Below, piece by piece: positions 31,939-55,181 of a stretch of DNA of 64,000 nucleotides. How positions within the stretch are numbered: the stretch's first letter is position 1; every line of letters begins with the position of its first letter. Source of the stretch: Paramecium tetraurelia. Taxonomy: Eukaryota; Ciliophora; Oligohymenophorea; Peniculida; Parameciidae. Below the pieces are notes generated by a model. That model was given only the letters and a program-made list of their open reading frames with translations. It was not told the DNA's origin and made no database searches. The position numbers and the translations under genes were made by a program. Location of the stretch: positions 252,611 to 316,610 of the forward strand of contig NW_001799033.1 of NCBI RefSeq assembly GCF_000165425.1, read 5' to 3'.

Positions 31939-34900
31939 ATGAATCCAGAACCTATTACTTTTTCATCTTTGATTGTGCTTAATATGAGTGCATTCCCGAA
32001 CTTATCCCTATACTCAAATGGATTCAGCACATAGAATTTTAATTTGAGATCATTTCACCAATTGAAAGGTGACTTAGATTAAGATTATTAGAATTGCGTT
32101 TTCAGAATACTGCCAGTTCTGAATTACAAGGCTCACGATGATCTTTTGCGATAATTCTAGGATTCTAATTTCAAGAACTTAGAAATGTATGAGTAAGGTC
32201 AAAGAAGAAATAAAATTTAAACCACATTGCTCAATTTAGAAAACGAACTAACTTCAAATATCTCTCTAACAAAAAAACTAGCAGGCACCCCTTTGGTTTT
32301 TAGTTCATCAATATTTCACTTAGTTCATGTTTCTTCATTGAAATTCTTAGCCTTAGATGATCAAAATCTGGAAGCATTATAATTTAAATTAATTGACTTC
32401 CCAAATAGTAACACATTATTAAAATTCAATCCTTGTTTGAATTTCCAAAAACTAAGAACCAATTTAGTGTATAGCGGAGACGTAGTATGTATATCTGCAA
32501 ACAAGCAAGTGTGCAATAGAACAGCAAATCTATTTACTGATTATTGGGGATTAAATTATTATGAATTGCAAGACGAACCATAGAAATACGAGGACGAAGT
32601 CTGTAAAGCTAAGGTGATAGCATCTGTTGAGGATTAAACTTAATGGAGAATCAAAATATTTCAAAATCAACAAGAAAATGATGAAGCCTTATTCGTAGGA
32701 GACGTGGCCATATTTCATTTGCCAGAACTGAACGTAACAAATTCATAATCGATAGTTATATTTGAATGCAAAGAAAACCTAAGACATCCAAGAAAAAGTC
32801 AAAGAAATCTTAGATCGCAATACTGTCGTCGACATCAGCAATATAATTCAAGACAAAGTCATTTATACAAAATAGCAGACTCTCTTTCCAGGATAGCAAG
32901 CTGTGATGTCAAGATAAGTAAGTGAAGAAGTGGGTAGAAGTGAACCAAAGAACTATAAATCAGATTCTCAAAATAGTCATATTTATGAGAAGTAGCAATC
33001 TCGTTCCTCTCAAATTATTCAGGCCTCAAAAAATATAAAAGAAATAGATAAGGCTCTCTATTCAGAAATTAAGTTATATTTTAGCAACTTTACTGGTAAC
33101 AAATCAGATAAAATTACTATTCCCTTTAGTGCTTATTGGAGAATAGAATCCGATAATTTCACTGGAGGGGAAGTCAAATGGGATAAGTGCTATCGCATTA
33201 GACATTTTTAAACTGGATAATACTTGGATGTCGATATAATGAGATAAGTAATACTTACAGAGAAGGTGACTAAGAATACCTTATTCTAATTTGTGGCTAT
33301 TAAGAAGAATTCTAAATACGTGGATAAAGAATCCTATTTCTTAATTAAGCATTTTCTGACTGGGACTTATTTAAATATTAGAAATGATCCTGTGTGCACA
33401 ACTTAAGATGTTAATTTAATAAATTGCATTAAATTCAGGAAAACTGATTATGAGGATATCTGGGAAAAGAGATTCTTAGTATTTTTGGTACCAATTTTAA
33501 AGGAGGCTATTTCATATTTCGAAATTCTTCAGCCTCTTACAAGTATTGCTTTTATGAAGAAAAACGAAGTCTAAGAGAGAATTGAATTTTATTACCTTTT
33601 TGAAAAGCTCAATTCTCTACTTGAAATCTTGAATCAGTTTATGTATAACAAATTAGTGAGTAACATATAAACAACTCAAGATTTCTCATTTGTTTCCTAA
33701 AATAGATAGGACATTATTAGAGAGGAGAATATCTTACCTTTGCTCATCTGGTTGATATGTAAGACATTCCCTAATCCAGATGAAAAAATAGAAGGATCTG
33801 AACAAAACCTAATTAAAGATTTGTGTGGTGAGAATTCATTTATTTTAAGAGTCTTAACTATGATTCAACAAAAGATGGACAAATCTAATGATATAGAATA
33901 TGAGAAAAAGGTTTAGAAAATGAAAGAATAATTGGAAGATAATCATAGAAAAAGGAAAAGACTATTACAATTAAAACTATTTCAAACCATTAAAATAGCA
34001 TGTCATAACAATTAAAGGAATCAAGAGATTTTAATGAAGTTTTTTAAACATTTTGAAAAGCATATAGCACATGATTATGTATGTACAACAATTAGTTAAT
34101 CCATTTCAAATAATTATCAAATTCTGAGTATGCTCAATAAACAGGAAATCCCATATGATATGAAGTCTACAATGAATTTCAACAATATAGATCAAAAGAA
34201 TTAAAAAAGTCAAAGTACAATTCTATCAAGACTATTGGACATCATTTCTAAGAGTGATCAACTTCTACCAGAATTGTTACATTTTCTGTCAGAAACTTGT
34301 GAGGCAAATGGAGAACCTGTGTTTTCGAATTAAGAATACTTATTAAATAGCATTTAATTATTGAATCAAAAGGTAAGGAATGACAAAGGAGAAGAGAAAG
34401 TTTATATGAATTTAGAACCCATACAAGAGAAGGAAGGAAACTATACGGAATTTTATATTACATACAGAACTTCAAATAAGACCTATGTCACTAGAATGCT
34501 ACATGATTTTTTGAATGATTATAGATAATTCAAAGATGTTGATCATTTTTATGTGGTGTAATACAACTATTTAATTGAATAATTGGCTTTTTTTTCAAAT
34601 ATTTGTTTTCATCGAAATACTGCAGCAAGAGAATTGATCTCAAAAACATTTACTTACTCCTTTTTATTATCTTATGCTGAATAAAATAATCACCAATAAG
34701 GATTCATGAGTGGAGAGCAGAATTTTGTAGATGAATAGGTTAGAGCCTACTTTTTCAGAATGATTCGAACCTTGTATATTGATAGAGAACCTTATACAAC
34801 AACCCCTAAACCAGAACTAGTAAGAATTTAAGAGGAAAAGACTACTCAAAAGACTTTGTTTTTATTTGATGAAACATCTAGTTAAAAGTGCGAAAAAGGA

Positions 34901-37900
34901 GAGTTTGATATTTAAAAATTGAAATATAAGATGCTCTAATATTTGCATGAATAGTCTGTAAAACTTGAAAATAATATAGAAGAAGAAACTGTTTATAACT
35001 TAGAGACTCTAGAAATCATTAAGATATTAGAATTAATGTTAAAGTTTGAGTTGTTTTGGAAAAGAGACGTTGAAGGTCCCATATAGAAAAAGAATTCAAA
35101 TAAACGAGGAGCCTCCATTTTTAATAAAATATCAGAAAATGGAGTGGGATTAAAGGAAATTGATAGGTTGATTACAGCATTATCAAAGATTTTGGAGTAT
35201 GATCATCAGTACTTCAAGTGTTTAGCAAATGCAAAAATCAAGAGGAATTGGTAAACAGATAATGAAAAAGACAAAGGCTTTATGAAATTCAATATCTCTG
35301 GTATCAGCCAAGTATTTGAAAAAGAGAGCAAGGAAAAAGATGAATAATAACAATCTAATAATAATTTTAGGTAGGTTAAGTAATAAGATACGGAAGTTGT
35401 AAATGATTCCTTGTTTAAGAAAATGAAAAATGTCAGAAAAGTACTTTAAAGATATAATAATAAAACATTCACCCTTAGAGAAAATAAAGAAGAAGACTAC
35501 CAGGTGTTGATCAAGATATAGATATGTTAAATATTCTCCTATTTAATGGATGTCTCATAAGATTATTGGATAGATAATGCCTTAGAGTTCTATAAATCTC
35601 TATAATAAAATAAGTAATTAAATGATGAAGTTAAGGAGGAAGACTTAATTAAACTCTTTCCTGAGGAAATATTAATGTCAGGAGAATAATGGGTTGATAA
35701 ACAAGATAGTGAAAAAAAAGCAAATAAATAATCAGCCCCTGTCTTAAAAAGCTTTGATGAAGTCTTGAGAAGACCATTCATAGAAGTATTGCTAATTGCA
35801 TTGTATTTCTCAAGAAACCCATAATTAGAGAATTAGATTGTGGAGTTGATCTAAAGATTTGCAAGATAAAAAAAAGAATTCTTATAGCATTTTGAGAATA
35901 TATAGATATTAGACACCAATGAGTCTCAATAATTGTTTAATGTGTGGGTTTAAATGACATCAATATTAAAAAATAATGTTTAAAGGAGTTAAACTTGGAT
36001 AGCAGAAAACAATAGAATAATGCATCAAACACTTTAATGTCTCTGGAAAATAGATAGCATATTTTAATAAACTGAGAGCGTTTCATTAAAATTAAAATAG
36101 TAAATATTTGAACATATAGGCGGTTATGAAGTTTTAATAGAGTTAATAAACAAAGCTTTAACTGTCATTGACTAAAAATCATTCCCCCCTGATCTAATAT
36201 TATTACTTAAGCATACCATGAATATTATGGCTTATTTTGCCAAAGATAATGAAAGAAATTCCTTAACAGTTTATAGAAAAGTTGTTAAGAAAATCATTTA
36301 GAATAGCAATTAAAATATTGGTTAAATAAGCTTAATTTGCTCATTATTTGAGAAAAAGCCAACTTTGTATGGACAGCTTGGATAATAGGAATATGATTAT
36401 TTTATACAATTGATAAAATAACATGGAAGATATCCAGAATTTCTATAATTTTATTTAGAAATTATAGAAGTTACTGAAATATATTCCAAAAAGTCAGTTG
36501 ACATGTTTGAAATCATCATTGAAAAATTAACAGATCCTATGGGCTTATAACCTGATCAAGATAATTACAATCCCTTATATCCATTTTAAGACTCTTACAA
36601 AATCACTGACTTTTTTGATTACACTCCTAACAAATAAAAATATTAATTTTACTTCATCAATATCATATCGAAATGTCTTTCAAAGAAAATTAGAGCCTCA
36701 TTAATTAGTCAAGCCATTGAATTTTTGAAACTGCAGGATCTTCTTGAACACACACTCATAGTAACCTAAAGAATTTTGGGATGTATAAAATAAAAAGAGA
36801 AGCCTCATTATGAGGATATCTAATTGTAAAGTGACTATTGGAACATTATTAAAACTATGGTATTTCATAAACCAGAAACACTTGATGAACTTATGTTTCC
36901 ATATAATTCTGAAATCTTAAATAAAATACTTACTGATGAACATAAGGCGATCAAACAAAAGGATAAGTTTATACCTTAGAATTTGAATTACTTGTTCGAT
37001 TCCTTATTACCTGTTGTAAATAGATATAACGAATTGTTGCAAAATGCCTTATTATCTTCCGAGAAAGATTAACATTAAATTAGCGAATTTGTGTCTTTCT
37101 TTTTAGAAAATCTTGATAAAATGTTCTTTTTGGCTCCAGCAGAATTAACCAATAATAAATAAAGATTAAAAACCATATCCGATTTAGGTTAAACTTTCAA
37201 TATTCAAATTCCAATCAAATTTTTTTAGCTAGACCCTAATATCTCCTAGGATGAAAAGACAGCTGATATGTAAACTCATTATGCACAGTCTTAAGAAAAC
37301 ACTTAAATAAGTTAATTTCGTAAGAAGTATTTTGGCTAAGAATTTGTCAAAGATTTAGTTAAAAAGGAATCCTTAAAGTTATCAAATTCCATTTGGACTA
37401 TTTAAAATATGTTTAAAGATGATAGAAAACAAGAAGTAAAGGATCTATTATTGACAAACTCAGATATTATTGTTAAAATTCTAACTTATTTGGAATTTTG
37501 GAAGACAAACGGAGCCAGTAGAGAGAATATCATCTTTATTCTCAAAGTATTATCTGCCATATTAAAAGACACAGAAAACGAATTATACGAGAGGCAAGTG
37601 TTATTTAATAGAATGAATGTCACTTAAATATTGATAGTTTTATTATGTGAATCTGAATTAGAACCAGTTTATATGGGTACTATAATGTCATTTATGATAC
37701 TACTATTAAAAAATGGAAATTAAAATGTTTAAAAAACTGCTTATGAGTATTTTTTATCAAACACACAATGTGAGAAGTTTTTTAAATAACTCAAAAATGT
37801 ATTCGATATTCAAATATTATCAATGAGTAGAGCCCATAAATTAAATTATTAGGAAAATAAATTAGTTTGTAAAGCTTTGAAATTAACACAATTATTTTGT

Positions 37901-40455
37901 GAAGGACACAATTAAGATCTTTAAAATTATATGAGATCTTAAAGTAACTAAAAGAATAGTTTTGATTTAGTTTCTTAAATTGTGTTGCTAATTTCTACTT
38001 TTTAAATCTCGAAAGCTAATTTCGAAAGTGTCTTGCAATGTTTTGAAACTCTGACAGAACTAATCCAAGGACCATGCAAATAAAATTAATAAACTTTACT
38101 AAAAAGCAGTCTTTTAGAACATGTTGTATTGATTTTATCAGAAGACGAAAAAATATTTGAATAATCAAATGAGTATTTCAAATACGATGGTGAGAAGCAA
38201 TACAGACTGGCTATTCATCCAGGATAATTGGCCAGACTGAAATTTAAATGCTTAAATTGTTTGGTATCATTATTAGAATGTTGTGACCCTCAGAATTCTG
38301 ATATTGCAAGATTGGTAAGAGTTATTCCTTTGAGCGTGTTAACAAACAATCTTACAAGAGTGTATAAGTTGTTTAAAGAGTAATTTGGTGCTATTTATAA
38401 GGATGAAATTTTTAAAAGAGCAGAGCATGAAATCACAAATGATGAGTAAGCAGTAAGTTAAGAATTCATCATAGAAAATGGATTTTGCATATTTTTGCTG
38501 ATGTAACAATTCCTTGGAAATTAAAAGGCTAAATAAATGTTATATGATGATAATGAGATGAATGATGTCTTAAATGAGTTTGCTGAAAATAACAATAAGG
38601 AAGAGGATAATGCAATTGCAAACATATTCTCAGGCTTAGAAAATATTGCAAAAATGGGTGGCAATCTAATAGGATAGATAGGGTTGCCTTAGAAATCAGA
38701 AGAGGAAAAGTTATTGTAAGAGAAATTAGAGCAAAAAGAGTTAACCAAGAATGCTATTAAGTTTTTTAGATAAAATACATGCTCGATTGATATGATAAGG
38801 GATTAGAAACTTTACACCATTTATTTTCCGAAATTACCAATTTGTAAATTGCCTAAAAGTGCCAGACTCGAATTTCATGATTAAGTTGATCGAACAAGTA
38901 GTAAGACAAAATTAACATACTTGATGGAAAGAGCTAATTTTCTTATAAAGGTTATGGAATACGAAGAAAAATTGAATTAAGTATTTGCTAAAAATCCTAT
39001 TTTCGCATTTTTCGCAACATCTGGAAAACTTTGGGAGAATTGTGCATTTGTAACAACATTAGTCATCAATCTAATAGTATTATTAAGTTATTCATAAAAA
39101 TTTTATAATGAAGGTCAATCAGATATCACAGGGGATTTGATATATGAAAGATTGTTAGATCCAAGATTATTAGGATAGACAGATTTTATATGGACACCTA
39201 TATTAATTTAAGGATTGGGAATCACAATGTTAGTGTTTAGTTCATTAATAGTTTTCTTCTTTTTAGTGAAAAGAGCACCTCTCAAAGTTGATCACATATG
39301 GGAAGATTATTAAAAACCAAAAACAGTAATGAAAATGATTTGGGATGTGAGCATAAGGGGAATAAAAAGTTTAATTATTTTATTATAGGACTCAGACATA
39401 CTGTATTATTGTATCTATATTATCGCTGGGATTGTTGGGTTGACAGTTCATCCATTTTTTTTTGCGTTTCACTTGATGGATTTCTTAAAATTGGAGCAAT
39501 TAAAAACAGTATTGGATGCAATATGGGGTCCAAGGTAGGAAATAGGTTTGGCACTTCTATTATTGGCTGTGATTGAATATTATGTTGGAATTCTTGGGTT
39601 TGTCATATTTTTTAATGATTATCCGATAGTAAATGGAACAAACTGTAGAATACTACAAGACAATGATCATATTATATGTGAGAGGGGATGTAGTACATTG
39701 TGGCAATGCATTTTTATGAGTTTTGATTTAACATTCAAATTCACAGGGGCTTTAGGTCAAGGGATTATGGATTATGACACTATTACAGAAATATCTTAGG
39801 ATTATGATATGATTGTAAATGGTTGGGATAGAGTAATCTACTCATAAAATGAATATGATGGAGTCGATCATAGTTTCACTTCGAATTACTTTAGTCGTTT
39901 TGTTTTTGACAATGCTGTCAATATTGTGTTAGTTATGATTATGCTCAATATGATATAAGGTATTATTGTTGATACTTTTGGTTCATTGAGAGAAAAGCTT
40001 CAAGAAAGAATCAAAGATCAAACGATGAAGTGCTTCATATGTGGTATCACAAGGGAAAAATTCGAAAAAAATGATGAAGGAGGAGGCATGGGCTTTCAAG
40101 AACACATAGAATAAGAACATTACATGTGGAATTACATTTATTATATTGCTTATTTGAAGCATAAAGATGAAAATGATTATAATGGCAACGAATCCTATAT
40201 CAAATCAAAAATTGATATTAAAGATATAAGTTGGATGCCAATTAAAAGGTAACCAAAAAATACATTATTTTTAGAGCAAGATTTGCTGAAGAAGATATGG
40301 ATGATTAATAAAAAGGTAATGAAATCTAAGAGGTAATTGAGATGAAGATGAAAACCATGAATGATTCATTAGAGAAGATCTAAGATAGAATAAAACATAT
40401 AATTGATATTATCAATAATCAACCTGTAAGCATGACAGAAACATACCACGCATGA
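31939..40455 (+). CDS. inositol 1,4,5-trisphosphate receptor-type Ca2+ release channel
   Basis: Predicted 2,822 residues, the full length of the InsP3R family (~2,700). After an N-terminal beta-trefoil-like part, a MIR domain sits at about 33140-33440 (YWRIESDNFTGGEVKWD, FQTGQYLDVD, LTGTYLNIRND). A long helical RIH-type solenoid follows. The transmembrane cluster is at about 39030-39960, with the pore loop TGALGQGIMD and the last helix VLVMIMLNMIQGIIVDTFG. Next come the diagnostic cytosolic motifs CFICGITREKFEKND, EHIEQEHYMWNYI and NGNESYI, nearly as in animal InsP3Rs (CFICGLERDKF...HIKEEHNMW). Function: ligand-gated Ca2+ release from ER or alveolar-sac-type stores. Two introns (22 nt near 32737, 26 nt near 40250) give exactly 2,823 codons. 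The filter GALGQG departs from the animal GGGVGD. InsP3-binding residues were not checked. Confidence 0.95.
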
Positions 40456-41490
40456 ATGTTATATATATTTCAAACTAACTTAATTAGTTTATTCAAGACT
40501 ACTTATACTTATTTTATATGAATAATATTTTATTATTCTTTTTTAAATATAATGTTAAAAAAATAACAATATATTATATATTTTTATATTTAAAACCATA
40601 ATAGATCATTTTTCTAATTTAGATCTGAATAATTGATAGAAACGAGCTGGATAATTTAACTAACTTAATTTCTATAGGTAAAGATATTAAATTGACTAAT
40701 ATATAGTCTTTATTTTTATAAAATAATTGGATTTGTATACTAAATTAAATCTACCTTAATAGTTCTCGAATAAGGACAATTATTGGAGTCTAAGTTTAAT
40801 GATTTCTAATCATCCGGACGATTTCTGCCTTTACTTAAATTTTTATAGAAGATCAGCCAAAGGAAAACTATGGATATTTAACTTAAATTATATAAGTCTA
40901 ATAGAAATAATTTTATTTAGAAAAATTTATTTCATAATAAATGCTTTTGTTTGAAGTTCAAAATTATAAGATGAACACTGTAGCAGTTCAATTTATATAT
41001 ATTTTCATTATTCTATTATTATTTCTATTAAGAAGATTCAAAAAGTTTTATGTTTATTCATTTTTAATTAGAATAAATTATTCTTATTTTGTTCGAGTGG
41101 CTTGAATTATTGTTTTCCTTTGACTTTAGAGTTTATCCATTTGGAAATATAAATTGATATTAATACTAAATGCATCTTGAATATAATTTCAAAATTAATA
41201 TATGTGATTGATTTAGTATTTGAACTATTTGAGGGATCAAATCAACATAATGTAAATCTCTTATCACTATTACAGAGCAATTCATATGTTTTTTTGGCAA
41301 ATGTTTAGTTGTTAAATGGGTAAAAATTTTAGCACAAATTTAAAGCAAACTTAATGCATGATATTTAAGAAAGAATTATATATTGGATATTAGTATAAGG
41401 TATAAAATATTCTAATTAAAACAGTAATCTTCAGAATTCTCATATAAAAGGATAATAAATACATATTAAAATCATAAATATTTATTTTTT
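40456..41490. other. intergenic, with an unexplained long open frame
   Basis: About 1 kb between the Ca2+ channel and the dual kinase gene. Most of it is AT-rich noise. One plus-strand frame is free of TGA from about 40955 to 41494 (some 180 codons; for example EIQIDINTKCILNIISKLIY and SYVFLANVQLLNGQKF), but it has no ATG near its beginning and its stop overlaps the next gene's start. It may be a decayed gene or a chance opening; I do not call it coding. Confidence 0.35.
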
Positions 41491-43818
41491 ATGATGAAGA
41501 ACGATTACGAGCCTATTAAGACCCTTCGCAAAGAGGAAGGGAAGCTAAAGATGCAATTAATAATTCTTAAAGATAGTAACACGCCTGAATATTTCATATC
41601 CCTTCATCTAATGAATATCAATATCTCTCATTAAGATTTGACTAAGATGAGAAAATTGAAATACCTAAATATTATTCAGCCTCAGAATTACTATGAAGAA
41701 GGAAAGGAAAAGATTTTAATATTTCCAGATAGTGGACCATTAAAGTTGACCAATAAATAATTGGCCCAAAATTATTATAGAATTTTGCTTTAGTTAGCGC
41801 TAAGTAAGTCTTGTTTCTAAATATAGCTTATGCTGAATTTGAATAACGATAAGTTAATTGGCCTCTGAACGAATTGTCACAGCTATACTATGCAGGAGGG
41901 ATATTATATATTTCTTTGCTAGATTTTGATTTTACCAAGCCCATCCACAACCAAAGTCCTTTTTAAATCTTTAGAGACTTTACTCTCAAACACTTCTCCT
42001 AATACATACCTAATATACAAAATTTATTTTAATAGAATTAGTTCAAGCCAGTAATTGAATTTCTATTAGAGAAGAATGGTGACTTACATAAAGTTAATTA
42101 TATGTATCCGCCGTATGAAAATGTCTTACTGTTTCTTCTATCTTAGTAAAGTCCAATATAACTTCATTCAATATATGAAATGGGTAACTCAGTGGTAAAG
42201 GGTTTCAACACACCAGAATCCCTTAAGATCACTTATACTAGATTAGGAGATCATATAGTTTACAAATCAACCAGATATCAGGCAGAAGAACATAAATAAT
42301 AAATCTAATAAAATATTCAAAGGGAAATTGAGTTAATGGAGTAAGCTTTTGATTCGCAATATGCAGTCACATGTTTTGCCTATATTAGGATTTTTGAGTA
42401 TTCTTTTCTCTTGTAAAAGAAATTCGTGCGAACATTAGCATAATTTTTAACCGATTGGTGCAAATAAACTGATAGAGAAGAAAAATAGACAATAAAGGAC
42501 GTACTCCTTATCGCAAATAGATTTGCATTAGGTATTAATTAAATTTATAAAGCCCTTAAATCACTAAAATCATTCAACATTCTGCACAGAGACCTCAAGC
42601 CTGAGAATTTATTTTTAGATCACGAACAGATTCACCTGAGCTACATATATATTGCTGATTTTGATCGTTCCAAATAATTCCAAGGATAATTGGGTGACGT
42701 TATGACTACTTAAAATGTTTAGAATACTCCAAAGTATGATCCTCCAGAAACTACCTAATCCTTTTATTATGACGTCTATTAATTCGGTCTCATCATATTG
42801 ACCATAATGAACAAAGGCAAGTACATTGGAAATGAAATAACAGGATCAAGATATTTCTCCCAAGAGGATCACAATAAGTATTATAGCAAACAAGCCATCA
42901 AAAATGCTCTTAGTCATACAAAATACTCTGAATAGTTTATTGACATCATCTCTCAGTGTTTATAGAGAGAACCAAAAGAGAGGCCTGATATCTAATAAAT
43001 ATACTCAATTATTAATCCATTATATTTAGATACAAAAATATAGAAGGTTCGACAGACTTAACCTGCGAGTGAATCTCCAGCATAACAAAATATTTAACAA
43101 AGTCGAATCAAAAGTAACCCTACAGATAATGCAATGTATGTACCTATTCTTCCAACACCAAATCAAGATGAACCTTCAAATTTTTTTTACTAGAACAATG
43201 TTGATAGTGGGTATTAGTAAGACCCTTAATAATATCAGCAATATCCATAATATTGGCCTAACCTATAATAGATTCCTTATCAATAGTAATAATAGCCTAC
43301 TTTTTAATATTAGACTAATTAATCATAACAGAATAATCAGCCATAATACATTGATTATTCATAACAGAATAATCAGGCATAATAGTATCCCAATAATTAA
43401 CCCCCTTAACAGCCAATTTAAGGATTTTTTTCTTCACATACAGGAAGAGTTATATTATATAGTTAATAGTAACCGAATCAGCCTGTTAATTATAATTAGA
43501 ACTAAAATAATGAGCAGAACCAATAGTAAATGTATTAAAATTATAATCCCTAAAATAATGTAAACTAATTTAGATAATTTAACAACAACAATACTCAACT
43601 TCAAATTAATAATCCTAATCATAATTTCTAGGACAATGGAGTCCTGAATTTGAGTCATTAAGATTCTCCTACTTAAGTTTCTCCTACTTAATATCAGCCC
43701 TAAACCCCAACATAAATTCAACTCCCCTCAAATCCTAAAATAAAAATCATATCCATGTATTAGTTTCAATATATATTTAAGGTAATCTCCTGGTCAAGAA
43801 AAGAATACTCCTTATTGA
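41491..43818 (+). CDS. tandem pseudokinase-kinase with DFD motif and Gln/Asn-rich tail
   Basis: Predicted 759 residues (introns of 23 nt near 41804 and 25 nt near 43755; exactly 760 codons). A kinase-like N-terminal unit without a catalytic HRD appears to cover residues ~1-170 (for example NELSQLYYAGGILYISLLDFDF). A second kinase domain follows with RLGDHIVYK (putative loop and Lys), catalytic [16 protein letters not shown], then IADFDRS where DFG is expected, and PKYDPPE for the APE motif. From about 43050 the protein becomes Gln/Asn/Pro/Tyr-rich. The same layout and the DFD recur in the gene at 52406-54110, so they are paralogues. The catalytic Asp and Lys are kept, so activity is possible but unproven. 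The stop lies 57 bp from that of the convergent flippase gene. Confidence 0.8.
43050..43735 (+). repeat. Gln/Asn/Pro-rich low-complexity coding tract
   Basis: Read in the ciliate code, this stretch encodes runs such as PYQQQQQPTFQYQ and SQQNNQAQQYPNNQPPQQP, mostly through TAA, TAG and CAA/CAG codons. At DNA level it is an imperfect array of TAATAG/CATAATA-like units, so it could also change length by slippage. Read with the standard code it would look like dense stops. Confidence 0.8.
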
Positions 43819-43875
43819 TAAATAATGATTGTGAACAATAATTAATTTTATAAATTAACACATTTATTTTCAATA

Positions 43876-46800
43876 TCAATGTTCTTCCTAAGAAAAAGCA
43901 AATCCTGTGTAGCCTCTTTTAATAGGACTTTTGGGAACCTAGGAGTTATTGATCTAAAATTGCGTATTAGGGGAATGTTAATGCAATTGTTGTTCATCTT
44001 GCAATTCAATGTGCTATTTTTAAATTAGCATATAAACTTTATCATGTTAAATTCCAACCTGAGCATACTAAGACCACTAAGCTAATTTCGTCAGAGCCAA
44101 ATCAAAAACTGAAGTTGCTCCAACAACTAACAGTGATGTCAAGTAGAATCTCAGATGAGAAAAGCTAGCGCTTTGGCTATTTGACATGTCAGATTTTGGC
44201 ATTTTCTCTGAAACTACGATAAATAAGAGGAGATAGATGAAAACCGATCCGAAAAGCCCAACAATAACTCCAAAAGAATAAGTATTACTAAATAGGATAA
44301 TCTAATTTTGATAGCCGAATTGATTACTTTGATATTGCTATTCAAAACTGAATACCCTAAAACAATGGCGCCAGTAGTCCATAAGCCAGCCATCATGCCA
44401 TTATAAATAGATGAGGCTTCGTAAGTCTGGAAGGTTAGGTACGATAAGATGCCAGCTTAGATAGTGCCATTAATGACCCAAAACAAGAATATTTTGACGT
44501 TGAATAATTTGTGTTTGATACCAATATCGTAAAAACTAGGGTCTACAATAGAGAGATAGATTTACTTGAAGTGAGAACATCACCAGAGAACTCTTCATCG
44601 AAGATGGCATATAATACTATAGGAAGACTAGTGAAAAATAGGTTGTAACTTTAATAGAGTAACTAGTCATAAAACATAACAGCCGAAAAGCCATTATTTA
44701 CAGCCCACCAATATTGAGGTAGGACTAGAAGCATATTTTTATAAAAATTGTAATTTACAAGAGTTGAGTTTTTCCTATAACTCTCTCTTCCATGATAAAG
44801 GGTTAATCTTTTAAGTATTCTGAATTCCCCAACAGCATAATCAGAAGCTCTAGCTGCTTGCTAGCCTTCTACTCCTTTAATTCCAACTCCAATATGAGCA
44901 GCTGTAATCATGTTGACATCATTAGCACCATCTCCAATGGCTAGAGTTGTAACATTAGGTTTATTTTATCTAACTAAGGAAACAATCTCTTATTTTTATT
45001 TTGGTGAAACCCTACATGCTACTACAGCCTCACATCTTTCAGCAATTTACATTACTTTTAATGAAAGTTCTGGTTTCATAGCTATTATCAAAGCGTTGCC
45101 AGAGATCACCAATGCATTTTTATTATTGTTTTGGCTTTTTTGGATAGCCTTTTCTAATTCATTTCTAATAACTTATTCATCATTTCCATCAACTATGATT
45201 TATTATAAAGAATCATTCAATAATTAACAGGAATAACCAATATTGATAGCAGTTTCTATTTTATCTCCGGTCAATACCCACACTTTAATGCCAGCATCTT
45301 TTAAGTATTAAATAGTTGGGCCTACTTCTTCTTGTAATTTATCTTCAATGGCTGTTCCCCCTATAAGTTCTAATTCTTATTCAATTTTTGCTTAGGACTC
45401 CATCATCAGATTTTCTCTATTTTGTATGGCTGAACATGCTTGTAAATAGCCTTTTTCCCACTCTTTATAAATGGATAAGGGCAATACTCTCTTAGTTAGT
45501 AGCAGAGTTCTTAAGCCAATCGATGCAAACTCCTGTAGATCGTTCCAAGTCTTCTCTTTCAACTAAGGAACGACAGGTTTCATAAGAGGTTCAATGACAG
45601 AGTCAGCTCCCTTTGTTAACAATATAATTTGATTGGCTTGATCTTAAACGATTACAGACACTCTCTTTCTTGTACTATTGAATTCAAGTACATGCAACAA
45701 TTGGTAATTCTTTATGTCGCCTTTTATATTGACCACCATACTGTTTGAATGCATCCAATCCTTCGAAAGTATATCCGCAATATCTTGCAAAATTAACTAA
45801 GGCTAATTCATCAGGAGATGATGCTTGATATAAGAGTTAGCCATTCTTATTTTCAGTCACTATAGTATGACATAATGATAAACAAAGTAAGAACTCATGG
45901 AGTGGTCCCTTTCCTGGAGTTTAATTCAAATCATTAAAGAAAGCTTTATCTCTGAAATCAACATTTGAAACTTAAGCTAATTTTGACACTTCTTCATTTG
46001 TTAATGTGGCTTCTTTTCCATATGACTTTTTATTGACTGTCAGACATTTGAAATCCATTTGGTTCTTTGTCAATGTCCCTGTTTTATCAGAAAATATGTA
46101 ATCCACTTAACCAAGTTCCTCATTCAGATTTGAAGACTAGACTGCTGTTTTTATATCGTATTCAGCTGAATAGGTCCCTTAATCCATGGTTATCAACATT
46201 CCTTAGAAATACTTAACCATTTCTAAGGAGACCAGCAATGAGATTGGGACAAAATTGGTGAATATAAGAATCCAATTACCCCATTTTATCTAAAATAAAT
46301 TTATAGAGATTACAAATAGATTTTTAGTAAAATTATGTTCTGGATCTGTAATTAAAATATCTAAATAGGATAATTGGGAATTATGAATCTGTTGCCAGGA
46401 TGAATTCAAATAGCCTCCCAAACCACACATGATCATCTGAAAACTAATCATATTGCATTTTTACTTATAATAGAAATATCACAATAATGAACCAATTCAT
46501 TGTTCTTTCTAAATGACTTCGTTTAGGCTAAGCTTTAACTGAATTAAGCATGATCTTTGAGTCATGTCCGTTATAACAAACAATTCCGTAAATATAATTG
46601 ACATTTCTTAAAATACAACCTCTTAATATGAAATTCTTTTCACTAAGAGGGATTTGTTGATTATTAATTTCAGCAGATCCAGTAAATTGATATAGATATG
46701 GATTTGGTCTTTCATATTTAACTGTCATCCTCAAAGCCAATAGAGAATCTTCACTTTGTTCTTACAGTTACTTTAGATTTTTTTGAATATTTTTGCATTT

Positions 46801-47310
46801 TAGATTGGTTTCTCCATCTAAATTTTTAGTCTCAATAAACGCATTGCCCTTCTTATCTGATGTCTACATCAATAAGATATCAGCTGGTATTTGTTCATCC
46901 TTCTAAACCTTGATCAAATCTCCGATCCTTAATTCACTCCATTGAGCATCTCTTGGTGCTTCATTTGTGCGTATCAAATAAGTCTTGCGAGTGTTTTCAG
47001 CATTGTCTGATTTGCTTCTCTGGTAATCTTCAATAAAATCCTTTATCATCGATATGCACACAACTATTGATAATGGACCCATAATCACAGGTTAACCATT
47101 TGTTATGCTGATTGCTGAGATCATCTGCATAATCGCAATGACCAAAAAGTAGACATTAGCTAACTTTGAGAACTGCTCTATCAAATTCAATGGAATGAAT
47201 GTAATAATCGATGAATATTTCGATGTTGTTATTTTGTTGTCAGGCACAGCCATGTCTGGAACATTAGATACAATCGATCTGTCTAGACTATCATTTGTAA
47301 TAAGTACCAT
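43876..47310 (-). CDS. P4-type ATPase (phospholipid flippase)
   Basis: About 1,100 residues. P4-ATPases move aminophospholipids to the cytosolic leaflet using ATP. Signatures seen in order: [19 protein letters not shown] at the start, actuator motif [10 protein letters not shown] (DGET), the P4-specific [10 protein letters not shown] in helix 4, phosphorylation site [10 protein letters not shown], and hinge GDGANDVNM followed by [20 protein letters not shown]. The C-terminal helices include [19 protein letters not shown] and [18 protein letters not shown]. Two introns near the 3' end (23 nt and 26 nt) carry the frame past apparent stops; the second leads into a Gln-rich cytosolic tail ending at TGA 43876-43878. 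Other introns within 45000-46900 were not all placed. Start at 47310 fits the family N-terminus ([10 protein letters not shown]). It would normally pair with a CDC50 subunit, not seen here. Confidence 0.93.
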
Positions 47311-47422
47311 TCATTTAATGAGCAGGCGGCCTAACAGTTATCAAGCCCCATTTTTTAATTGTTCTTTCATTGTTGTATGCATGAGAATCCATTTAATTAA
47401 TATATTATTCTAAAAAACGATA
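47311..47422. promoter_or_regulatory. shared divergent promoter region (flippase / secreted protein)
   Basis: 112 bases between two divergent start codons. AT-rich; no element recognised. Confidence 0.45.
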
Positions 47423-48044
47423 ATGAGAATATTGGTTATTGTGGTATTAGCCCTCACAGTGATGGCAGCCCAAAAAAAGAAGAAGTACATTTACAAACCA
47501 CCTCTAAATTAGAGTCACACCAAACTTAATTCATATGGACAACAAGGCATATTAAAAATCACACGCAAAAATTGAATATGATGTTGATTCATTTACTAGT
47601 CCCAGAACTTAGTAACTCAAGACAGCCTAGAAAAAATAAGACAGCAGCTTAAAAAGAGCCATCCTACACAGCCAATAGACCACTGGATTTGTCCAAATTT
47701 AATAGGAAACAGATCAATTCATCCTCATGAACCAAGATGAAGATGTACCACAAATTCGCAATATTTAGCTCTCTTCCGAATTAATGACTGAGTAACAAAT
47801 CCAATAAGCTTTATTAACAGCCGAAGACTTTAACAATGTCCCCAACATTGAGATGCAAGCTGAATCAAACTACTAAGCTCCAGATGTAGCTCAAGATGAT
47901 GTCAATGAATCCTATTATATTCCAGTTGTCACCGAAGGAGATGGCACATTAGAGGAAGTTCAGAACTCTGATGAAGAGCCCCAATAAAACCCAGATATCG
48001 AGATGCCTTCCTTGGATGAAGCTTCATCATCGTTCCTTCAATGA
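47423..48044 (+). CDS. small acidic secreted protein, hypothetical
   Basis: 197 residues after removing a 28 nt intron (47485-47512), which joins the signal-peptide exon to the rest in frame. Signal peptide: MRILVIVVLALTVMAA. A short basic run (QKKKK) follows it; the mature chain is Gln/Ser-rich and then strongly acidic toward the C-terminus (DVAQDDVNESYYIP, VQNSDEEPQQNPDIEM). No domain is recognised. An acidic, low-complexity secreted chain could be a store or granule (trichocyst-matrix-like) component, but no trichocyst-matrix signature is visible and that is only a guess. Confidence 0.75.
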
Positions 48045-48801
48045 GAAATTTAATATCCAACATGTTTAGACATTCAAGATATATAATCATTATTTTTATA
48101 CAAATTTTATATTCTTTCTTGATTAATTAGTTCGGATTTTATATTCTAAATACAATTTGAGAATACCAGTTTATTGGATTTCATTAACTCTCTTAAAACG
48201 TCTTAACTACTATATATAGTAAGCAAAATAATTGATGATCCTATTGAAATATTTTCGCAATATTCAAGATTGAAAAACTAGCCGTTACTACTTTAATGAA
48301 AACACGTATTTATTTAAATTGTAGGACAGTGTTAAACAAATGACATATTCAGATCTCATAATAATATGGAAATACTTATCAAAATAGGGTGTTTTAACTT
48401 CTACAATTTTGGAAGATTTTAACATCAATTTTTATTATAATTTGAATATAGTTATTACTTATAATTTATTAAACTTAAAGTAATAAGTAAAGATTCTATA
48501 AAAATCCCATAAATTTATTATAACATCAATTTTAACAATTATGATGACTTTTATTGAAATGTAACTTATTGGTAAATGAAGAAAAGTCTTTAGAAATATT
48601 GATAAATTTTATTGATTATCTAAGAAAGCCAAAAACTTAAACTATGATGATTTCTCATTAATTTAATGCTCGCTTTGTCTAGTATTAAAAGATATATTAT
48701 AATTATTATATTGTTTGAGTATTGAGTGATTATTGCGTTTATTCGCTTGCTTTAAATTTAAATCAAAGTTAATGGTAAGATTTATTATTAATAATTGAGA
48801 A
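48045..48801. other. intergenic, AT-rich, nothing recognised
   Basis: About 760 bases with TGA frequent in all frames of both strands. No RNA gene, repeat or ORF that I can support. Confidence 0.5.
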
Positions 48802-50242
48802 ATGAGTTTAGAGAGAAAGTCCTTCTTCGACTTCACTTCCCCTTTTGAACTGAAAAGGCCAATTGAAATATTTTAAAAATCCTTAAAGGATCAATTTTAT
48901 GTTCTCAAAAATAACAAGTTCAAGTTGAAGACCCTGGTGCTTCAACGTAATTACTTGATCAAATTTAGTTCTAAGGTATCATCATATGTCCTATATAAAA
49001 GAAACCAAGCCAAAAGTACTTTAATATAACAAATGCTTTGCTTGAATTAGTCAATCACCCTCAAATGGGAACAGGAATTTCAATAAGTAAAAACGGAGAA
49101 AATTTTACATTCTATGGTCTAGTGGACAAATGGTACACCAACTTAAAAAAATGGTGTGTGTAACCTAACTTTTAGAAAGAGTACTGTATGATTAAACTTA
49201 TCGGAAAGGGAAGCTTTGCTAAGGTATACATAAAAAATTGATCAATTAGGTGTATAAAATTTAGAGACTAGGTGATAAAAAAGAATTTGCAGTGAAGCTA
49301 TTTGATAAAACCACTTTTAAAACTCAAGATAGACCTGCCTTGCTCAAAGAAATTGAATTAATGAGAATAATGAACCATTCAAATGTAGTCACTATTCTTG
49401 AAACTTATGAAAACGAGCAATATATATTTATAGTACAAGAATTATTCAACGGCGGAGAACTCCACCAGGAATTGAAAAAAACTCAAACCTTTTCAGAATA
49501 TGGAGCCTTCATAGTTATTCAATAAGTGATAGAGGCCTTAAATTACATACATTCCCATGGAATCATCCACAGAGACATCAAACCCGAAAACATCATTTTA
49601 AGAGAACAAGGAGCTATAGAATAGGTGGTACTAGCTGACTTTGGTTTGGCTGATTACTTCAGGAAGGATTGCAAATATATGTTTACTAGATGTGGTACTC
49701 CTGGTTTTGTTGCACCCGAATTATTGCAAGATAAAATTTACGATTATAAAGTCGATATATATAGTTGCGGGATACTTTTATACTATTTGCTCGTAGGCAA
49801 AGGGCCATTCGATTCAAACAACTATGATCAGACAGTTATGGCCAACTTTAATGGATGGGTAGACTTGACAAGGTTTCAATTTTCGATTGAATGTCTTGAA
49901 TTGTTAAGAGGCATGTTGGACCCAAACCCTCTCAAAAGATATTCGATAGATCAAATTCAACAAAGTTAATTCTTTAGAAAACATTCAACAATTTTCCAAC
50001 AAATAGGAAGTCAAAGTAGTCTGGCCAGCATACCTTCCTAAAGGGACTCACCATCAATTTCTCCCTAACAAAGTCCAAATCAAGAATCAAAGAAGTCCCC
50101 AAGCGATTTAAAAAATAGATAAGTCAACTCTTGTGTTTCGCCATTACAATTACCAGTTAGATTAAATACAACCAGCTTCTCTCCATTATCAGCTCCTTTT
50201 GGAAAGCCAAGAAATATACAAAGAATACCCATACAAATATGA
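48802..50242 (+). CDS. CAMK-like Ser/Thr kinase with PH-like N-terminus (1)
   Basis: 462 residues after two 26 nt introns (one ending just before KPSQKYFN, the other inside the glycine loop after GKGSFAK); exactly 463 codons. Residues ~25-125 form a short beta-rich segment ([20 protein letters not shown] ... [12 protein letters not shown]) with the closing Trp helix of a PH-like domain. The kinase domain follows: [20 protein letters not shown] (catalytic Lys), [55 protein letters not shown]. All catalytic residues are present. The C-terminal ~85 residues are Ser/Pro-rich. The next gene, on the same strand, is a paralogue; two more copies lie at 60719-63978. Membrane targeting by the PH-like part is inference. 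Confidence 0.9.
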
Positions 50243-50520
50243 ATAAATTATATATATCGAGTTATTAAATAAATAAAAAATATTTGCTTCTGTTAGAGTA
50301 TCAAAATTCACAATGTATTATGTTATTAAATAAAATTTAAATAAATATACACGTTGGTTTTGTAATTAGAAATATTAATAATTAAGTATTATTATTTAAG
50401 TTAAAAAAATACACATATAATTCGACAAATTTAATAATATATAAAACATCTTCTCGAAGATATTAAAATAACTGATAATATAAATTTAGATTAATGATTG
50501 GAGTAAATTTGATTAATAAT

Positions 50521-51993
50521 ATGAATATAAAGAGATAAGTGCCCTCAACTTCTTTCTTCGATATTTCAAAAGGCCCTTTGTGGTAAAACACTACTGCCTC
50601 ACGCAATATCAATGAGTCTATCTAAGAGAATTTTTACATATATTCTGAAAAGCAAAAAATCTATAAAATAAAGACATTTTACTTGTAAGGTCATTTCATT
50701 TTCAAAAGAAAAAAGAATGTAAGAATATTTCATTCTAATCTAAGGGTCAAAATCAAATTGCTGATATCCTCAATGCTACTATTTGTGAAGTTGAGCTTCC
50801 CTTTTATGGTGCCGGAATAAGAATTATTAAAGCAGGTCAAATTATCGAAATATATGGCATGACAATAACTTGGCTTCAACAATTGAGGTTTTATTGTATT
50901 CAGTAAGACTTTGCAAACAAATACTCCATCATCAGATTACTTGGCAAAGGCACATTTGGAAAAGTATGAAATTATTTTTAAATCTTAGGTGTTCAAAATA
51001 AAATCTAGAATTACACAATAAGACTTTGCTGTCAAAGTATTTGAGAAAAAGGCCATTTCCAATTATTAAGATTATCTATTAATAACAAAGGAGCTTCAAA
51101 TAATTAGAAGTCTAAATCATCCAGGAATCACCAAATTTTTTGAAACCTATGAAAATGATGAACATATTTTTTTAATATATGAAATGGTGGAACAAGGAGA
51201 ATTATACACCTTCATTAAAGAAAAGCATCTTTCAGAAGAGGAAGCTTTGTTGATTCTCAAACAATTATTATAGGCCCTCCTTTATATTCACTCCAAAGGA
51301 ATTTTACATAGAGACTTAAAGCCTTCCAACCTTCTGGTAAGGGATAGAAACACTTTATCAATAGCAATTGCAGATTTTGGGTTGGCCGAATTCTATAGAG
51401 TCGATGGAAAATATATTTTTACAAGATGTGGGACTCCTGGATATGTTGCTCCAGAGGTATTACAGGACAAAATTTACGATTATAAAATAGATATTTATAG
51501 CGCAGGTGTCATTCTTTTTATGATGCTGAGTGGTGGTAAATCTCCTTTCAATAGCACTGATCCAGAGGAGAGATTGTACCAAAATTATAAAAGTCTTGTA
51601 GATTACTCTTTGGTTTCAAATATCTCTGAAGCAACTTATAATCTACTACAAAGCATGCTTGAACCTGATAATATCAAAAGGATATCAGCAAGAGCTGCTT
51701 TAAATCATTAGGTTTTTCGAAACAAAAGAACCAGTAAGTGCACTATTATGATCAAGAAAACTCCAAGAAGCATTGATAAAATTACAGCTCCAAGAGTCAT
51801 AATAAATACAAATAATAATTTAGATAAATATTTATAATTATCCCCGAAATTATAAAATTTATCATCGAAACCTTAAAATAATATGAAATAGGAGGCTATA
51901 AGAAGGGGATATTAAAAAATGCAAACATTTTCACATAGATCTCCCCAACTATCGCCATTGCAATCTTAAACCAAATTCGAACCATTCCCATGA
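50521..51993 (+). CDS. CAMK-like Ser/Thr kinase with PH-like N-terminus (2)
   Basis: 473 residues after introns of 26 and 25 nt; exactly 474 codons. Same architecture as the gene just upstream: a ~120-residue PH-like segment (FYLQGHFIFKRKKN ... TWLQQLRFYC) then a full kinase domain with RLLGKGTFGKVF, DFAVKVFEKK, YIHSKGILHRDLKPSN, IADFGLAEFY, CGTPGYVAPEVL and YSAGVILFMMLSGG. The second intron sits at the same place in the glycine loop as in its neighbour, which supports tandem duplication. Ser at the Asn-adjacent position (KPSN) is the only catalytic-loop variation. The tail is basic, Ser/Pro/Gln-rich. Confidence 0.9.
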
Positions 51994-52405
51994 AAAATAT
52001 TGTATTAATTTATATATTTTAATTCATATAACAATATCATTCTTTCTTTAATCATACTTTTAATTGGGAATTAAAATTTTAATTTTTCCTTAAGTAGTTA
52101 CATATATATATTATAATAATTATCAAAAACTCACTGAAACTGAAATAATTTAGTATAATCATAATATTTTAAATGAAATTATTGTTTTATTAAATGTTAT
52201 CCTCCTCGACCATATTTTAAAGTACTTATTTTTTAAATGAATTAATTGTAATATTTTTAGCTATTATATTTTATTTTGATTAACAAATAATGATGAATTA
52301 GTAGACCAAAATTACATTAATAAAATTCTATTTTAATAAAATATTTATCTTATGACCATACTTGATAATATATATTTAAATTATGTAATAGATAATAATT
52401 TTAAT
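51994..52405. other. intergenic, AT-rich, nothing recognised
   Basis: About 410 bases between convergent kinase genes. No supported feature. Confidence 0.5.
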
Positions 52406-54110
52406 TCATATATCACTGACAACTTGCTCCTCAATTTGTTGACTTTTTTGCCATTTAAAACTTTAACTTGAAAAAAGCTTGGGACCTTTAGCCTGTTTTG
52501 ATTATTCTTTTTCGTATAATTTTTACATTATTCTTTCAATTTCTCTAGCTTATGGTCGTTATTATGGATCTTCTTTTAAACACTACTTAATTACATCCAT
52601 AAATTCTTTATCATAATTGTATTATTAAAGTTTTCCCTCTATGACTTAAGGGGAATAATATTGATTAAAATCAAGACAGATTCTTGCTCCTGGATATTAC
52701 CCTTTATTGGCTACTTCGTATATTGTTAATCCATATTGCCATATATCAACAGAATGGTCTCTTAATTTTCGTTATTCTGGAGGATTATATTCTGGTGTAT
52801 TGGTTTGATCAAAATAATCAATATCTAAGCCTTAGTTGTCTTTTTATTGAATTATGGATCTATCAAAATCAGCGATGTGAATTTGGCCGTAAAGAATATT
52901 TTGATTGGTCAAAAACAAATTCTCTGGCTTCAAATCTCTGTGTTTAATTCCTGCAAAATGCAAAAGAGCTAATCCTTTAATGAACTAATAAGCAATTGCA
53001 TAAACAATTAATTTTGTAAAATAAACAGATTGATTTTAATTCATTAATTCGAAATACTATCTCAGATTCTTACAATAATATCTCATAAATAAATAAGATT
53101 GATCCAAGATCCTTATATATTTAAAACAAGCAGCTATTTCATGATTAACTTCAAATAATTCCATTAATTAAATTTCTCTTGTGATATTGACTTTAACATC
53201 TTCAATATCTTGATCCTCTTCTCCTTAGATTTTTGTGGATTTAGCTATTATATCTTAAGTCAAAGGGAAGCTGAAAATCTTTTCAAAAACTGGTAATTTT
53301 TAGAATTTGTAAATATGAGAATTTGCTTGATAGTCAGCCAATTGTGTATAGTTGGACACTTTAAAAATGTGTTGGAAAACTTTAAAATATTAGGCATTTT
53401 CATAATCCTTAACTATTAAATTGAAGGTTGACAAAATGGATTCAGTGAAAGATTCTATTGTATTGGCTTCAAAATGAAATTGATCAATTTCTTAAATTTC
53501 ATTTAATTGAAAGTTATTCCTAACTCAATATTAATATATAGAAGTTACTAAATTGTTTTAAGTAATTCAAGGATTATGTATCAGTTGATTTCTCATAATA
53601 ATGAAACTCTTGCATATTGATAAAAACTATTCCGTCGATGAGTACTAATTGATTTAGATTTGTAATATTGAAAGGAATTTTTCTCTTCGCCATTTCTAAA
53701 AGGGCTAAAGTTTATATATATATAACAGATTTACTTATGCTTAGTTAAACCATGATAGAAACCTTCGTATTCTTATCCAAATGTTTAATTGATTCAACAC
53801 TTAACTAGTAATTTTATAAAAATGGATAGACTATAATGAATTAATCATCCTCATGATAAAAGTCTTCTTTATTTATAATATTTAGTATTTTTATTTATTT
53901 CACTAAGTAAAACATATCGATGATATCCCTTTATTATTTATTAAAAGGGTAGTAGGCAGCGATATATTTTTATTTAGACTCCTGATCATTTTTCTTGACA
54001 ACAATCTAATATTTGTTATAAGGTTTATCTTGTTTGGAGAAGTCATTAAATTCTTGGAGGATATCATAATCAGCACCGAAACTGATTATTTTTATTGATT
54101 AAAACAACAT
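52406..54110 (-). CDS. tandem pseudokinase-kinase with DFD motif (paralogue of 41491-43818)
   Basis: 559 residues with a single 25 nt intron (53524-53548), giving exactly 560 codons. The N-terminal ~190 residues form a kinase-like unit lacking a catalytic HRD ([43 protein letters not shown]), which lines up with the first unit of the other paralogue. The second unit has [27 protein letters not shown] (DFD again), NTPEYNPPE and [20 protein letters not shown]. It lacks the long Gln/Asn tail; instead it ends in a short basic Gln-rich segment. The conserved Lys of the second N-lobe is not obvious. Function unknown; the shared DFD suggests a distinct ciliate kinase subfamily. Confidence 0.8.
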
Positions 54111-54580
54111 TGAATTTATATTTATAAATCATTTTTGATATGAGAAATTGCAAATAAATAGTAATTATAATCTAATTATGGAGAAATCAAATTTGGTAAA
54201 AATATTATCACTTGCATTTAACACTATATATATTAGATATATTAGTAACATAAAATATATATTTTACTAAGCAAGATACATGTAACCAAAAGAAATTCTA
54301 TCTGGCTAAATTATTGATCATAGGAAATTATTTAAAGAACTATTGTTGACATGTAATAAATAAAAATCTCAATGAATTCCTATTACTTGATTATTTAATA
54401 AAGTATCTCTATTGAAAAAGGATAAAGAAAATTTTAGTATTAAGATATTAATGATAAACTATGATATATTTCGAGTAGTCTTTATCTTTATTATATCATA
54501 AGGTTATTAAGTATTATCTAATGAAAATAGATTATTATTATATCATTAAAAACATAATTGTAAATCCTTACTATGATTCG
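54111..54580. other. intergenic, AT-rich
   Basis: About 470 bases. A 60-odd-codon open frame on the plus strand starts at an ATG near 54179 (MEKSNLVKILSLAFN) and ends near 54375; without homology or context I do not call it a gene. Confidence 0.4.
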
Positions 54581-55181
54581 TCATAAATCCTCTGAAACAA
54601 CCTCAACACTGCAACTTGACAATATGACTTTAGCCTTTGGTTTTCCACTTTATTATCCTTTAGATTCAATCTTTTTTACTAATTCCATATTTTCTATGAC
54701 TCTGCCAAAAACTACATGTTTTCCATTTAACTAAAAACCCATAATATATATTTAATACCCAATTAGTATCAGCAGTTGTAATAAAGAATTGACTTCCATT
54801 GGTATTTGGCCCTGCATTGGCCATTGAAATGCATCCAACTTCATGATTTAAGTCTAAATTTTCATCATCAAATATTTTTCCATAAATTGATTCTCCTCCA
54901 GTACCATTTCCTTTAGTGAAATCACCTCCCTAAATCATGAAGTAAGGAATAATTCTATGGAATGGTGAACCCACATAGCTTTTTCCTGCCTATTCGCCAG
55001 TACATAAAGCTCTGAAATTTTCGACTGTCCTAGGTACAACATTCCCGAACAAACCGAGAGTGATTTCTCCTTACTTCCTGTTATCAATAGTAACACCTAT
55101 CTTCACTTTGTGTGTTATTGTTTGCTTAGATAATTGAGATAGAACGCCAAAAGATAATAAACAAAGAATAATAATTTTCAT
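54581..55181 (-). CDS. secretory-pathway cyclophilin (peptidyl-prolyl cis-trans isomerase)
   Basis: 190 residues after a 28 nt intron (54731-54758); exactly 191 codons. A signal peptide ([15 protein letters not shown]) precedes a complete cyclophilin fold. Active-site and core motifs are all present: [31 protein letters not shown] (catalytic Arg, Phe and Gln), [24 protein letters not shown] and [11 protein letters not shown] (His). In place of the cyclosporin-contacting Trp seen in many cyclophilins, the NW just before the intron is at a different point, so drug binding was not judged. The arrangement resembles cyclophilin B, which folds proteins in the ER. There is no ER-retention tetrapeptide at the end (SEDL), although it is loosely KDEL-like. 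Confidence 0.95.

Follow-up and report, generated by a model that had tools for sequence, protein, structure and literature searches.

Introduction

A glycine-rich loop was needed in all protein kinases described before the WNG family, according to the excerpt of PMC6442604 on which we draw (the other papers cited here are likewise represented by excerpts). The WNG kinases, which these excerpts report from coccidia only, lack this loop: strand beta1 and the loop are replaced by a helical extension, an acidic residue takes the place of the glycine of the DFG triad, and the core catalytic residues are kept. In WNG1 of Toxoplasma the acid is a glutamate, and mutating it brings the activity down to the kinase-dead level (PMC6442604). 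Here, we have analysed genes A (41491-43952, forward strand) and B (54110-52406, reverse strand) in a window of 64,000 nucleotides from the ciliate Paramecium tetraurelia (contig NW_001799033.1, positions 252,611 to 316,610; all positions below are those of the window), and showed that both encode predicted two-unit proteins, in which a degenerate kinase unit precedes a divergent kinase unit of the Ser/Thr type, the latter without a glycine-rich loop and with DFD in place of DFG. A and B belong to a family that resembles the WNG kinases in having no glycine-rich loop, an acid for the DFG glycine and conserved core catalytic residues. Compared by description only, the family differs from WNG in coming from a ciliate, in having mostly Asp where WNG1 has Glu, in a short proline-containing stretch at the place of the loop, and in the added degenerate kinase unit.

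DFD alone is already known from the Mnk kinases, the plant AGCVIII kinases and RNase L, and the loss of the loop together with the acid is known from WNG. In Mnk kinases the glycine loop is normal and no degenerate kinase unit stands in front, and the pseudokinase domain of RNase L is fused to an RNase. JAK and GCN2 are tandems of a pseudokinase and a kinase, a dead unit followed by a live-looking one; the family of A and B shares only this layout with them, and no specific similarity was seen. Mnk1 and Mnk2 resemble the family in having DFD in an otherwise kinase-like unit, and excerpts of PMC1821047 and PMC3326643 describe the Mnk kinases as homologous to the CaMK family, the DFD of Mnk2 as adopting the out state, and its D-to-G mutant as adopting both states. 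In the plant AGCVIII kinases the motif occurs as DFDLS, of which the DFDxS pattern resembles the DFDRS of A and B; unlike the family, these kinases have GxGxxG and an activation segment of 55-137 amino acids (excerpt of PMC3499706), whereas the distance from DFD to PPE is 31 residues in gene A and 32 in gene B. The pseudokinase domain of RNase L also has DFD, both acids of which bind Mg2+ (as cited in PMC6442604), but RNase L is metazoan and a pseudokinase.

Among the literature matches, the combination of loop loss with an acid at the DFG glycine was found described only for one parasite kinase family. No ciliate kinase family with these traits was named in the titles or abstract openings of the matches listed, among which few subscription papers were covered. 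As many ciliate kinases fall in ciliate-specific families (excerpt of PMC3341644), the family of A and B may already be listed somewhere.

Results

A kinase family with an acidic third residue in the DFG triad

The family was assembled by protein searches of the organism's own genome (a 69-Mb assembly) and from the regions fetched, and its counts are lower bounds. It comprises at least 16 kinase units, nine of them in full-length members (A, B, C176 at 194 kb and 427 kb, C163 at 161 kb and 145 kb, C165 at 75 kb, C190 at 414 kb and C84 at 102 kb) and seven in a more distant group (C224, C225, C41, two in C201, C209 and C167), for which most loci were fetched around the kinase unit only. The plan of a degenerate first unit followed by a kinase unit is common to all nine full-length members, and an intron was modelled at the equivalent place of the first unit, after QLxLT, in each of them. 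Their pairwise identity is ~22-46%, and all nine kinase units match the Pfam protein kinase model PF00069 at E <=0.001.

The triad is DFD in 11 of the 16 units (A, B, C176a, C163a, C163b, C165, C176b, C84, C224, C225 and C167), including eight of the nine full-length members; the others have DYD (C41), DLD (C209), DFE (C201b), DQE (C190) and DFN (C201a). The third residue is thus an acid in 15 units (13 Asp, 2 Glu), Asn in one and Gly in none. Outside the family, 34 kinases of the genome, which were picked up through their similarity to A or B and so do not sample the kinome at random, have Gly at this position in 31 cases, Thr, Asn and Lys in one case each, and an acid in none. Because of this difference, the acidic third residue is a family trait, with an occasional Glu or Asn, and not a chance mutation, as an earlier interpretation of this DNA made from its letters alone (hereafter the sequence-only reading) had argued from A and B. 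The non-Gly triads outside the family are DFN, DFK and DFT (L056, L057, L042).

The comparison set was derived from 35 rows, from which gene B and the spurious non-kinase L054 were removed; L038, L044 and L051, in which a D ahead of the triad had been picked up, were re-read, giving 33 kinases with 30 Gly, and the ordinary DFG kinase L016 was added to reach the final counts. Six of the 35 non-family loci have no row: L045, L047 and L049 overlap counted loci, and L019, L046 and L053 are uncounted.

In a tree, the 16 family units lie on one side of a branch with 100/100 support, opposite 19 other kinases of the genome and separate from its CaMK-like kinases. These 19, used also in the hhalign comparisons below, are the segments longer than 250 amino acids among 27 candidates found by similarity to A or B; measured against a set chosen in this way, the separate subfamily that the sequence-only reading had proposed is upheld. 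Within the family, the second group has 97/93 support, the nine-member group has 87/93, which is not firm, and six rows of the tree are on long branches. When the kinase-unit profile was compared with viral contigs, 13 loci showed general kinase similarity, at 22-31% identity. One full-length member, C190 (G000:C190:414238-415399), reads HRN at the HRD and DQE at the DFG position, has Arg at the place of the beta3 Lys and has lost the catalytic-loop Asn; to judge from these residues, it looks like a pseudokinase that arose within the family.

Loss of the glycine-rich loop and state of the kinase unit

Before the beta3 Lys, a GxGxxG-like sequence was sought over up to 30 residues in the 16 family units, and a GxG over 120 residues in the nine full-length members; neither was found in any of them. 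In 15 units, the alignment was read as having a Pro and then hydrophobic or aromatic residues at the place of the loop (NTPESL in A, DTPDFL and KTPFYI elsewhere), C163a being the unit without this Pro. The best 60 of 2788 matches of the kinase-unit profile in the Protein Data Bank (PDB) were aligned only from position 15 or later, i.e. past the place of the loop, and they are a mixture of OSR1, IRE1, CDPK, B-Raf, Nek7, ULK and others. Gene A reads through the stretch before the beta3 Lys in a single open frame that connects its two units, so that any splicing here would take sequence away and could not supply a loop. The control is weak: the beta3 Lys was found in 17 of the 19 other-kinase segments, and GxG lies upstream of it in only 7 of these 17 unspliced frames. 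Unspliced introns or cut frames account for those control kinases without GxG that were inspected. The evidence for loop loss therefore comes from the family's own continuous frames. The sequence-only reading did not mention the loss of the loop in A and B.

Other catalytic features are kept. The beta3 Lys, the HRD Asp and the catalytic-loop Asn are each present in 15 of the 16 units and the first Asp of the triad in all 16; A and B have all four. The activation segment ends in PPE in 14 units and in APE in the other two.

Kinase similarity of the first unit

A profile built from the first units of the nine full-length members, with no known kinase included, matched 18 PDB sequences at E <=10. 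Fifteen of these are named as kinases, and the remaining three belong to titin, a protein that itself contains a kinase domain. The best match is DAPK3 (E 4.3e-4), and the three PDB alignments printed are collinear through beta1, alphaE, the place of the catalytic loop and DFG. Aligned by hhalign to the 19 genome kinases, the same profile scored 34.3 (E 3.9e-4, probability 35.7%); the highest control score was 16.9 in 20 column shuffles and 20.8 in 200 (0/200 as high as observed), and the reversed profile scored 13.3. The stretch equivalent to HRD is gone (e.g. RQVNWPLNELSQLYY in A), and the place equivalent to DFG reads DFDF in A and is degenerate in the other members. Past this place, the ~70 following residues of the first unit had no recognisable kinase match in the PDB and hhalign profile comparisons. 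Together, the profile comparisons support a degenerate kinase unit, without a recognisable rest of the C-lobe, as the likely nature of the first unit in the nine full-length members. The pseudokinase that the sequence-only reading had inferred here is supported by the kinase profile similarity from beta1 to the DFG place only; the remaining C-lobe is not recognisable.

Gene models of A and B

Genes of the assembly were read with genetic code table 6, in which TAA and TAG encode Gln, and with introns of ~20-30 nucleotides, both of which we take to be typical of Paramecium. A table-11 reading of A and B gave many in-frame TAA and TAG codons and was rejected. Table 6, which the sequence-only reading had called for, gives intact frames of 812 codons in A, with one tiny intron modelled, and of 549 codons in B, with two. 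That reading had placed the start of A and both ends of B correctly, but its end of A at 43818 differs from our model, in which the stop codon ends at 43952; the 3' end of A is provisional. The HRDLKPEN and ADFDRS motifs that it had reported in both genes were located at the exact coordinates listed below. Its suggested HMMER search with PF00069 gave a match for the second unit of both genes (A 86.6 bits, B 99.8 bits, cut-off 31.7) but none for the first unit of either. A and B are paralogs with 30% identity over ~490 residues, and the alignment includes the first unit. Their features are as follows, with the first unit given as N-unit, the kinase unit as K-unit and the basis of each in brackets.

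41491..41803, + strand: gene A exon 1, first half of the degenerate N-unit (table-6 translation and intron model; N-unit profile match)
41804..41826, + strand: gene A intron 1, 23 nucleotides, GTAAGT..ATAG (intron model)
41827..43952, + strand: gene A exon 2, with the remaining N-unit, the kinase unit and a long N/Q-rich tail (translation; 3' end provisional)
41922..41933, + strand: gene A N-unit DFDF at the DFG-equivalent place (profile alignment to the DFG of kinases)
42186..43040, + strand: gene A K-unit (PF00069 match)
42207..42224, + strand: gene A NTPESL, at the place of the glycine-rich loop (family alignment)
42264..42266, + strand: gene A beta3 Lys, in IVYK (family alignment)
42532-42552, + strand: gene A likely further intron, an in-frame stretch of 21 nucleotides (inside exon 2)
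42585..42608, + strand: gene A HRDLKPEN catalytic loop (translation)
42654..42671, + strand: gene A ADFDRS metal-binding motif (translation)
53735..54110, - strand: gene B exon 1, N-unit (translation, intron model)
53734-53705, - strand: gene B intron 1, 30 nucleotides (intron model)
53549..53704, - strand: gene B exon 2, N-unit (translation, intron model)
53548-53524, - strand: gene B intron 2, 25 nucleotides, with an unusual GAG acceptor (acceptor needed to keep the frame)
52406..53523, - strand: gene B exon 3, with the end of the N-unit, linker, kinase unit and stop (translation)
52508..53323, - strand: gene B K-unit (PF00069 match)
52919..52942, - strand: gene B HRDLKPEN (translation)
52856..52873, - strand: gene B ADFDRS (translation)

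Several paralogs were also modelled with an intron near the place of gene B intron 2. The tail of gene A (43059-43952) has 297 amino acids, 38% of them Asn or Gln; gene B has only 34 residues there. N/Q-rich tails are also found on C176a, where the tail is mostly poly-Gln, and on C163a (loci L061, L062). Being prion-like in composition, such tails on a kinase could mean targeting to condensates.

Genomic surroundings

The block 39457-55097 is shared with G000:C176, where a flippase-like gene is 95.6% identical over 451 amino acids, two CaMK-like kinases are 85.5% and 85.8% identical and a cyclophilin-like gene is 79% identical. In a further diverged form it is also shared with C163, with 85.6% identity over 292 amino acids for an IP3/ryanodine-receptor-like channel and 62% for a CaMK-like kinase. 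The family member C163a, which is found downstream of the channel gene and is oriented like A, shares only 39% identity with A; on C176, a family member lies beside the flippase in inverted orientation and is 35% identical to A. As the family copies on these duplicated blocks are 35-39% identical and the neighbour genes 62-96%, the family changes or turns over far faster than its neighbours, with its catalytic residues kept. At G000:C176:183291-185376, a CaMK-like kinase seems to occupy the place that gene B (52406-54110) has in the window, which suggests the loss or replacement of gene B on the C176 block.

Adjoining gene A, an open frame of 2479 codons (32906-40345) with MIR, RIH-associated and ion-transport domains is a predicted IP3/ryanodine-receptor-like calcium channel. 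Between A and B lie a gene at 43876-47310 on the reverse strand, which by eye we take to be a P4-type flippase-like gene and of which the fragment 45687-46451, when scanned, had no match in Pfam, and two ordinary protein kinases (49130-50242 and 50911-51993), with 210 bits each to PF00069.

Discussion

We argue, at about even chances, that the family encodes a kinase, or at least a binder of Mg-ATP, in which the second acid would replace the role of the lost loop and which would be regulated by the dead first unit. The kinase unit would still bind ATP. Without the clamp of the glycine-rich loop on the phosphates, the acid after the Phe could help to coordinate Mg2+ and in this way hold the nucleotide, as in RNase L and WNG1. 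Most members are probably active protein kinases, and the first unit, without catalysis of its own, may regulate them in cis or serve for docking. That catalytic residues are kept, although identity within the family is so low and the neighbour genes change far more slowly, is in favour of this proposal. As the glycine-rich loop is missing, coordination of Mg by the second Asp, by analogy with WNG1 and RNase L, would be a better guess than a switch of the Mnk kind; the sequence-only reading had raised a change in the DFG-in/out switch as a possibility. The bolder claim, that outside the coccidia a family of active kinases came to couple loop loss to an acid at the DFG glycine independently of WNG, is tentative and falls somewhat short of even chances.

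Several observations weigh against the proposal. The aligned alphaC Glu is kept in only 13 of the 16 units, and is replaced by Asp in C163a, Asn in C201b and Val in C167 (read by eye). As regards the first unit, the Pfam kinase model was matched by none of the nine single sequences, only three of the 18 PDB matches of the profile are below E 0.01, and the hhalign probability of its similarity to kinases is low. A tandem duplication was sought by comparing the profiles of the first and second units, which gave no useful alignment (1.7%). For the second group a first unit is not established: HMMER finds none in C224 and C225, the two members that are long enough, and hhalign scored these two at 19.8 against the nine-member first-unit profile (maximum 18.9 in 50 shuffles) and at 13.7 against other kinases. 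Moreover, the loss of the glycine-rich loop would suit a catalytically dead ATP sensor equally well.

Such a sensor is the main rival explanation. Both units would then be pseudokinases, the second binding Mg-ATP through DFD without phosphotransfer, so that the protein would be a nucleotide-gated scaffold like RNase L, in whose pseudokinase domain both acids of DFD coordinate Mg2+ (excerpt of PMC6442604). The absence of the loop from all 16 units fits this well, as does C190, which has neither the HRD Asp nor the beta3 Lys. However, the HRD Asp, the Asn and the beta3 Lys survive in 15 of 16 fast-changing units, although the HRD Asp should not be needed for ATP binding alone, every unit retains PPE or APE at the end of the activation segment, and A and B score above the PF00069 cut-off. 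We consider the dead sensor unlikely on balance, if a serious contender. A good deal less probable is a Mnk-like switch, in which DFD would favour an autoinhibited DFD-out state that is relieved by phosphorylation or a partner. The behaviour of Mnk2 and its D-to-G mutant, as excerpts of PMC1821047 and PMC3326643 report it, would be the precedent, but the Mnk kinases are homologous to the CaMK family, the loop is gone from all 16 units here, and the Glu in two units and Asn in one at the third position fit a role in charge or metal binding better than a switch specific to Asp.

It is just as improbable, in our judgement, that the first unit is an unrelated alpha/beta domain whose profile similarity to kinases arose by chance or composition. 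The lack of any Pfam kinase match among the single sequences, the low hhalign probability and the unrecognisable C-lobe past the DFG place would all agree with such a domain; on the other hand, every one of the 18 PDB matches is to a kinase or to titin, the three printed alignments run collinearly from beta1 to DFG, and the scores of the 200 shuffles and of the reversed profile are much lower than the one observed. Least credible of all is that decay or relaxed selection is at work in these genes, with DFD as a shared relic. The very low identity between copies that lie next to well-kept neighbour genes, the GAG intron acceptor of gene B and the degenerate C190 point in this direction, yet the frames of A and B are intact throughout their 812 and 549 codons, and catalytic residues are near invariant while other positions diverge.

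If the bolder claim of an active family that arose independently of WNG is true, the absence of a glycine-rich loop together with DF(D/E) would be a second, general solution for a kinase active site, controlled here by a built-in degenerate kinase unit. With a second loop-less family that carries the same acidic substitution, what was an oddity of WNG would become a testable rule, namely whether a second acid offsets the lost loop. The sixteen diverged copies in one ciliate genome would serve as natural variants for this question, with DFD, DYD, DLD, DFE, DFN and DQE in place of DFG.

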